In this document: in pieces, positions 11,904 through 63,520 of the stretch
Position numbering within the stretch: position 1 is the stretch's first letter
Layout: each line of letters begins with the position of its first letter
Assembly (NCBI GenBank): GCA_017848795.1
Contig: JAFIHG010000035.1
Location: 1 to 64,000, forward strand
DNA: 64,000 nt
Reading direction: 5' to 3'
Origin: Candidatus Nanopelagicales bacterium
GTDB taxonomy: Bacteria > Actinomycetota > Actinomycetes > S36-B12 > CAIYMF01
The notes under the pieces: model-generated
Databases searched by the model: none
What the model was told of the DNA's origin: nothing
Seen by the model: the letters and a program-made list of their open reading frames with translations, nothing else
Program-made: the position numbers and the translations under genes

Positions 11904-11958
11904 GTCCCTGCTCGAAACGTCGTCAACTCGCCGGGATAACGACATTTCGAGCAGGGAC
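11904..11958. repeat. Intergenic palindrome family A, copy 1
   Basis: Arms 11904-11923 (GTCCCTGCTCGAAACGTCGT) and 11939-11958 pair over 20 bp with one G-T mismatch, around a 15-nt loop. The element sits between two convergent genes, 27 nt after the TetR stop and 20 nt after the hydrolase stop. The same arm sequence recurs at 20205 and 36899. It may act as a bidirectional terminator. No T-run follows. Confidence 0.9.
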
Positions 11959-20204: not shown

Positions 20205-20259
20205 GTCCCTGCTCGAATCGTCGTCACCGGAGCCGGTAGACGACGATTCGAGCAGGGAC
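20205..20259. repeat. Intergenic palindrome family A, copy 2
   Basis: Arms 20205-20225 and 20239-20259 are perfect inverted repeats of 21 bp (core GTCCCTGCTCGAATCGTCGT). A further CCGG-AG-CCGG lies inside the loop, so almost the whole 55 nt can fold. It lies 12 nt after one convergent gene and 16 nt after the other, which fits a shared bidirectional terminator. Confidence 0.93.
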
Positions 20260-22943: not shown

Positions 22944-23023
22944 CCTCGTTGATCAAGGAGAAGGTGACATTTTCGATCACCGTTTCATGATCGAACCGGG
23001 CACCTTCTCCTTGATCAACGAGG
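22944..23023. repeat. Intergenic palindrome family B (nested)
   Basis: Perfect 23-bp outer arms (22944-22966, core GTTGATCAAGGAGAAGGTG, and 23001-23023) enclose a second inverted repeat TTCGATCA/TGATCGAA (22972-22979, 22988-22995). The structure begins 7 nt after the L,D-transpeptidase stop and ends 47 nt before fumC. A terminator role is likely from position, but there is no T-run. Confidence 0.92.
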
Positions 23024-32241: not shown

Positions 32242-32460
32242 ATGAGCCTTCAGACCGTCCAGGTGACCGGACTCACCTGCGAGGACTGCGCGAACGCCGT
32301 ACGGGAGCAGGTCGCAGCCCTGCCGGGGGTGACCGACGTGACGGTCCGGCTCGCGCCCGGCGCGACCTCGAGCGTCAGCGTCAGCGCCGATGCCCCGCTG
32401 TCCGACGAGCAGTTGCGCAGCGCGCTGCAGGAGGCCGGCGACTACCAGCTCGTCGGGTGA
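32242..32460 (+). CDS. copZ: CopZ-like copper chaperone (heavy-metal-associated domain)
   Basis: This 72-aa single HMA domain carries the copper site GLTCEDC (CxxC; Leu replaces the usual Met before Thr) and a VRLAPGATSSVSVSADAPLSDEQLRSAL betaalphabeta core. It would pass Cu(I) to the CopA exporter encoded next. The ATG has AAGGAGC at 7 nt. Its stop codon lies inside the left arm of an inverted repeat. Confidence 0.9.
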   Translation: MSLQTVQVTGLTCEDCANAVREQVAALPGVTDVTVRLAPGATSSVSVSADAPLSDEQLRSALQEAGDYQLVG

Positions 32461-32503
32461 ATGTGGCAGGACTCCGCCTAGAACGGACTTCTGCCACATT
32501 CAC
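32457..32503. repeat. Intergenic palindrome family E (copZ-copA)
   Basis: Arms 32457-32476 (GTGAATGTGGCAG then TCCG) and 32484-32503 are inverted repeats over 20 bp with two mismatches, with a 7-nt loop. The first arm includes the copZ stop codon. It may cut copA expression relative to csoR-copZ or act as an RNA-processing hairpin, because copA has no obvious promoter of its own in the 98 bp that follow. Confidence 0.88.
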
Positions 32504-32601
32504 CGGGAACCCGGCGCAGCTGACCACCCTGAAAGCCCGGGCCGTGCGGCCCGGAACCGACCGGCCGTCCGCGGGCGACCGCAGCACGTGAGGAGGGCAC
32601 C

Positions 32602-36898: not shown

Positions 36899-36953
36899 GT
36901 CCCTGCTCGAAACGTCGTCAACTCGGCGCGTTGACGACGTTTCGAGCAGGGAC
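36899..36953. repeat. Intergenic palindrome family A, copy 3 (perfect)
   Basis: Arms 36899-36922 and 36930-36953 are perfect 24-bp inverted repeats with a TCGGCGC loop and the family core GTCCCTGCTCGAAACGTCGT. It lies 17 nt after the stop of the minus-strand DUF3817 gene. The rest of the 36678-36970 gap shows no gene; GGCCC-CGAT-GGG-near-repeats at 36755 are the only other structure. Confidence 0.93.
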
Positions 36954-38557: not shown

Positions 38558-38617
38558 GTCGATCATGATGTCGGTCGGCTCACCGTCCACCCCGCGCCCA
38601 CCAACGTCATGATCAAC
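38558..38617. repeat. Intergenic palindrome family C, copy 1
   Basis: Arms 38558-38579 (GTCGATCATGATGTCGGTCG...) and 38596-38617 are inverted repeats over 22 bp with a few G-T or single mismatches and a 16-nt loop. It starts 39 nt after the LLM oxidoreductase stop. The core GATCATGA recurs in the element at 59427. Confidence 0.85.
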
Positions 38618-46379: not shown

Positions 46380-46489
46380 GGTGGCGTCACTGTCCTGGTG
46401 GCGTCACTGTCCTGGTGGCGTCACTGTCCTGGTGGCGGTCTACAGCCGGATCCGAGGGGAGTTCTCGACCGCCAGGACAGTGACGTCGC
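46380..46489. repeat. Intergenic palindrome family D, copy 1, with triple tandem repeat
   Basis: Three exact head-to-tail copies of GGTGGCGTCACTGTCCT (46380-46396, 46397-46413, 46414-46430) are followed 40 nt later by one inverted copy (core CCAGGACAGTGACG, 46472-46485). The third copy plus GG and the inverted copy form a 14-bp stem; the other two can pair with it in competition. It begins 25 nt after the argS stop. The spacing (17 bp, no spacers) rules out CRISPR. Confidence 0.9.
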
Positions 46490-46514
46490 GAGAGGCGGTG
46501 CACTCGGAGCGGAA

Positions 46515-59365: not shown

Positions 59366-59426
59366 CTCGCTCGTCAGTCCGGGGTGGGCCGGCCCGGCCC
59401 ATCACCCGCCCGTCGCTCGGCGCCTC

Positions 59427-59522
59427 GTCGTTGATCATGAGGTGGTACGCGCTCGCGCGAGTCGATCATGATGTCGTCGGTCCCTACGGCCGTTTGCGAC
59501 CCGCATCGTCATGATCAACGAC
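59427..59522. repeat. Intergenic palindrome family C, copy 2 (three arms)
   Basis: Outer arms GTCGTTGATCATGA (59427-59440) and TCATGATCAACGAC (59509-59522) are perfect over 14 bp. Between them is a third related arm (GTCGATCATGATGTCGTCGG, 59461-59480) almost identical to the left arm of the element at 38558, and a CTCGCGCGAG palindrome (59452-59461). It ends 4 nt from the mgtC-like stop, and lies 61 nt after tRNA-Asp. Confidence 0.88.
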
Positions 59523-59526
59523 GCGG

Positions 59527-63447: not shown

Positions 63448-63520
63448 CGACGTCACTGGCCTCCTGGCGGAAAACTCCTGGGTTTCAGGTCGATAACCCA
63501 CCACCAGCACAGTGACGTCG
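63448..63520. repeat. Intergenic palindrome family D, copy 2
   Basis: Arms CGACGTCACTG (63448-63458) and CAGTGACGTCG (63510-63520) are perfect over 11 bp, and further similarity to the D core (GCTGGTGG) continues inward. It lies 13 nt after the ATPase stop and 20 nt before the permease start, in the middle of an otherwise two-gene unit, so it could reduce permease expression or process the mRNA. Confidence 0.83.

Follow-up and report, generated by a model that had tools for sequence, protein, structure and literature searches.

REP-like palindrome families behind stop codons of a Nanopelagicales genome: apparent spread within one lineage and a possible role as U-less terminators

The window analysed here is a stretch of 64,000 nucleotides on contig G000:C9 of a Candidatus Nanopelagicales bacterium; its G+C content is 72%, and an Actinobacteria sRNA family (RF02471) was matched within it. 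A sequence-only reading of the window had described nine palindromes, sorted them into five families (A to E) and placed one edge of each near a stop codon. Inverted arms were present at all nine sites, the sorting into families was correct, and each site had an edge no more than about 40 nt from a called stop codon.

The family A palindrome at 11904-11958 lies between convergent genes whose stop codons are 26 nt and 19 nt away. Another copy of this family (20205-20259) separates the convergent genes of an AMP-binding enzyme and an aldehyde dehydrogenase, with stops 11 and 15 nt off, and a third (36899-36953) is found 17 nt from the stop of a minus-strand DUF3817 gene. Family B is represented between tandem genes for an L,D-transpeptidase and, following it, a fumarase/aspartase-like lyase (22944-23023), at a site where the aligned spacer of a sibling genome has no comparable palindrome. 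One family C palindrome with weaker arms (approximately 38560-38616) is 3' of a luciferase-like monooxygenase gene, and one with nested or tandem arms (59423-59526) sits between tRNA-Asp on the plus strand and an MgtC-family gene on the minus strand. The family D copies lie behind argS on the minus strand (46383-46492) and between the minus-strand genes for an ABC ATPase and an FtsX-like permease (63448-63520). In the copy behind argS, the left arm is repeated three times in tandem with a 17-nt unit (46383-46435), giving three left arms and one right arm. The family E palindrome (32456-32504) separates a copZ-like gene (HMA domain) from a copA-like one, and its own TGA ends the copZ-like reading frame. 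The gene identities given earlier for the neighbours of the copies at 32457 and 63448 were confirmed, and both pairs are of a kind often co-transcribed.

The genome surveyed is a single draft assembly of 3.445 Mb in 57 contigs, 98% complete. The claim of a repeated element depended on copies outside the window, and these were found genome-wide, in more than 150 places over at least five unrelated families of palindromes measuring 50-80 nt. The arm word of family A gave 137 matches with none for the reversed word, and its full-palindrome pattern gave 81 matches against 6 in the reversed control, that is, about 75 copies. For family B, 36 arm matches formed 18 pairs and thus 18 copies (reversed word, 0); for family E, 63 matches corresponded to about 31 pairs or copies (reversed word, 0); and for family D, 39 matches against 4 for the reversed word indicated about 20 copies. 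The family C arm word is too short for a clean count (82 matches against 10 for the reversed word), with at least 11 palindromes identified in the stretches used for placement. Those stretches, 60 of up to 20 kb each picked around copies, together with the window, total 1.22 Mb or about one third of the genome; a codon-usage gene finder built for this analysis called 1127 genes in them (88.7% coding). Applied to the same 1.22 Mb, a de novo palindrome finder returned 144 palindromes at a score of at least 16 and none in order-3 Markov shuffles, and a single cluster of shared repeat families took in 133 of the 144. The genome also holds a further palindrome family, G, and a family F based on the word GGTCGAGCGTAGTCGAGACC, which frequently occurs as inverted pairs 9-12 nt apart (e.g. 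L151:15540-15595, L176:584-639 and L206:18521-18574).

The families share one plan, in which the core length is fixed, the arms are conserved and the loop varies freely. Cores measure 55 nt in A, 70 in B, 71 in D and 49 in E. In these four families the conserved columns next to the core are complementary between left and right, and no conserved column is one-sided; the true stem is therefore longer than the core, and a one-sided tag is absent. Standard pairs occupy 94.6% of cells in A and 95.1% in E, and none of 500 shuffles reached the covariation score observed, although the kinship of the copies makes this comparison overstate the significance. These paired changes support constraint at the level of the hairpin. 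Computed mean fold energies range by family from -39 to -55 kcal/mol.

The placement of the elements is far from random. The expectation that copies would concentrate at stop codons was strongly borne out over the 1.22 Mb, and copies deep inside genes were almost never seen. Among 127 copies of A-E, 78% had a stop codon no more than 20 nt away, compared with 10.6% at random intergenic placement, while divergent spacers held 4.7% compared with 28.4%. Median distances to the stop codon were 8 nt for A, 7 for B, 4 for D, 0 for E and 26 for C. Of the 135 gene ends that face an element of family A, B, D or E, 32 have their stop codon inside it. Family F contrasts with A-E, stop codons being a median of 114 nt away. 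A C-rich flank 3' of the stop codon was considered as a target signal and rejected, since the C-richness is present also where palindromes are not.

No convergent or tandem spacer in the 1.22 Mb held two elements, even of different families, although 12.4 extra occupants would be expected under independence. Other hairpins were likewise scarcer in element-holding spacers (convergent, p=0.044; tandem, p=0.099). On the grounds of these two observations, we read the one-element-per-spacer pattern as functional equivalence of the families. It could also arise from insertion restricted to unoccupied gene ends.

No family has a U-tract: the 8 nt downstream of A-E contain on average 0.8-1.1 T against a background of 1.2, and four or more T occur behind none of them, so that textbook intrinsic termination is not supported. 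The unique hairpins of this genome are placed in a similar way and are mostly without a U-tract as well. In Streptomyces, Term-seq commonly finds hairpin 3' ends that have no U-tract, and these have been linked to I-shaped or Rho-dependent ends (PMC8269248). The elements share with such U-less terminators of high-GC actinobacteria a stable GC-rich hairpin just 3' of the stop codon and the missing U-tract. The difference is that U-less terminators were not described as sequence-repeated families (PMC8269248), whereas here arms are common to up to about 75 copies.

Family A carries an additional regularity. Of 116 arms, 112 have TGA, TAG or TAA as the variable inner codon (e.g. 11937-11939) and one has TGG, on both strands and even where pairing is broken. 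Per copy, about 16 TGG would be expected if the two columns were independent and 1 was seen; counted by distinct haplotype (TAA 8, TAG 5, TGA 6, TGG 1), the departure is not significant. Another A copy with TGG lies outside the aligned set (G000:C7:60224). The frames of the gene stop and the element stop are distributed 28/27/15, a weak preference. Taken from the aligned copies, this pattern is suggestive of a stop-codon constraint on the inner codon.

In the relatives searched, the A and E arm words are private to this lineage. The A word is all but missing from the genomes of 98 relatives and, among 84,980 species, gave scattered single matches only, in 54 stretches; the E word found at most one inexact match per relative. 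The sibling genome, G001, belongs to the same genus (about 80% nucleotide identity in best-matching genes) and has one A-like 55-nt copy with identical outer arms as well as palindrome families of its own. Seven element-holding spacers could be aligned to it, and in none of the seven does G001 have a comparable palindrome (score of at least 11). At the clearest, a convergent A site where both gene ends align, the spacer measures 88 nt here and 44 nt in G001. Because the aligned G001 spacers lack palindromes and the arm words are absent elsewhere, we conclude that the elements were most probably gained in the present lineage after its split from G001, loss in G001 being formally possible. The suggestion of a mobile-like spread is thus supported by both the palindrome-free sibling sites and the absence from other genomes.

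Relatives of the same family possess their own palindrome families with other arm words (L256 in G008, L247 and L252 in G002, L237 and L240 in G001), examples being CCACGTCGAACCCAGG in G008 and CCCGTCGTTACTGCC in G002. A minor type, GATC...GGCAGT with a CCC/GGG centre, is alike in G001 and the present genome (L165:2809-2847, L182:13864-13996, L240:7032-7072) and is possibly an older family common to both.

Several established routes of spread were examined and set aside. Mobilisation by a RAYT enzyme was rejected for lack of the Y1 family: Y1/RAYT transposase (PF01797) had no match in the 98%-complete genome, with control genomes positive. Target-site duplications of 2-9 nt were not above those in shuffled flanks, and a MITE with target duplication was rejected for want of them. 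A phage origin was dismissed in view of viral contigs, which are essentially without the arm words (single arms only, 1 A and 4 B matches). Identity with attC or integron sites, raised by GTT-RRR-like words, was rejected because the word sits in the inner arm and the 7-mer misfits. A MITE would also share its ends with a full-length transposon of the genome; as to this mark, the sole widely split A-arm pair among the matches listed is interrupted by an insertion of the IS1595 family, whose ends bear no relation to the palindrome arms. This insertion, with an ISXO2-like transposase, lies in the right arm of an A palindrome (L189:3580-4770; G000:C7:13579-14768) and shows an apparent 8-bp target duplication.

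The premise of the sequence-only reading, that sequence-conserved palindromes at gene 3' ends are unusual, was too strong, as REP elements show them in many genomes (PMC3733652). REPs are generally defined as extragenic, palindromic and highly similar sequences of about 14-40 nt present in many copies per genome (PMC12306157). Families A-E agree in extragenic position, palindromy, similarity and copy number and differ in length, with cores of 49-71 nt. In the GTAG and CGTC super-families, REPs measure 20-40 bp, carry GTAG or CGTC on one side as an unpaired tag and are known mostly from Proteobacteria (PMC3733652). They are high-copy, often species-specific and of several families in one genome; most are found where the neighbouring genes converge or run in the same direction, and in most convergent spacers they lie within 20 bp of both 3' ends; the termini of GTAG REPs often provide the gene's stop codon, and CGTC REPs have no known transposase (PMC3733652). 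Both stop-codon adjacency and stop-codon supply are thus already described for REPs, and A-E resemble the two super-families in these respects, in copy number and in the presence of several families. In contrast, A, B, D and E are symmetric, with paired conserved flanks in place of a one-sided tag.

The REPINs of Bertels and Rainey (2011) are reportedly associated with RAYT transposases and consist of short palindromic repeats multiplying within one lineage. Lineage-bound multiplication is common to both, but each copy of A-E forms one hairpin where a REPIN has two inverted REPs, and the genome is without a Y1/RAYT gene. Family F, with its two inverted copies of the same word, resembles a REPIN, likewise in the absence of the Y1 transposase. 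DNA-uptake words are mostly single and dispersed; the arms here occur almost solely as fixed-spacing pairs, and of five words, not one. Inverted uptake sequences of Neisseria and Haemophilus act as terminators (PMC2267715), and in both cases repeated words form 3'-end hairpins. Judged by these comparisons, the elements would behave as REPs do and probably also as U-less terminators, while departing from classical REPs in size, tag and enzyme.

We come to an explanation that we consider probable on the sequence evidence. Several unrelated families of REP-like, untagged palindromes would have spread after the sibling split and been kept behind stop codons, where any one of them could serve in place of another as a U-less hairpin terminator working in both directions or as a barrier at the 3' end. 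The families would multiply in the lineage after its split from the nearest relative compared, presumably copied by some enzyme, and copies would be retained where they came to lie directly behind a stop codon. The RNA of each copy is predicted to form a very stable hairpin from either strand. Most likely this hairpin would end transcription, as an I-shaped U-less intrinsic terminator or as a barrier defining a Rho-terminated 3' end, and would block 3' exonucleases. One element would then serve one gene or two converging genes. Counting against this explanation are the missing U-tracts, the two copies between genes often co-transcribed (32457 and 63448), the other possible source of the one-element-per-spacer pattern and a mobilising enzyme not found in the genome.

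The elements might instead be purely selfish REP-like passengers, moved by a copying enzyme, with their 3'-end pattern reflecting the least harmful or enzyme-preferred insertion sites. The lineage-private amplification and the palindrome-free sibling sites speak for such passengers, as does the fact that REPs elsewhere are placed alike and widely held to be mobile (PMC3733652). Tolerance alone, however, predicts about 12 doubly occupied spacers where none was seen, other hairpins tend to be missing from element-holding spacers, and the arms are nearly invariant while the loops are free; we regard pure selfishness as rather unlikely. Less plausible still is translational or mRNA-stability control, in which a hairpin within 15 nt of the stop codon would stall ribosomes or protect the mRNA and transcription would not be ended. 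E. coli REPs near stop codons have been reported to stabilise mRNA or to affect ribosomes, and the median stop distances of 0-8 nt in A, B, D and E are inside their range of less than 16 nt (PMC12306157). Yet terminators in tight spacers predict the same closeness, and sequence does not separate the two readings; heavy use is also made of convergent spacers, the setting in which termination matters most. A further reading takes the palindromes as sites bound by a nucleoid factor or another DNA-binding protein, with the symmetry fitting a dimer and not a hairpin. It would suit the near invariance of arm columns 1-12 and the free loop in family A (58 copies) but is very improbable, as five arm sequences with no relation to one another would call for several factors and nevertheless be mutually exclusive at gene ends, and the paired arm changes favour a hairpin, even if a symmetric protein site also favours symmetric changes.

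Beyond the terminator or barrier role itself, we tentatively raise the idea, doubtful as it is, that the terminator positions of genes are contested, and captured, by several palindrome families independent of one another. These would be portable two-way terminators spread by a non-Y1 route, and a stop codon kept on each strand might belong to the module. The usual REP-like picture is one of one-sided tags, a GTAG type tied to the RAYT enzyme and mostly proteobacterial hosts, in which it is disputed whether the repeat is a parasite or a useful hairpin. In the present case, an actinobacterium without the Y1 enzyme, the same niche is filled by unrelated families, with never two elements per spacer. 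Together with the sibling, which is without elements at the few alignable sites, this gives a natural opportunity to test if copied repeats can become terminators.
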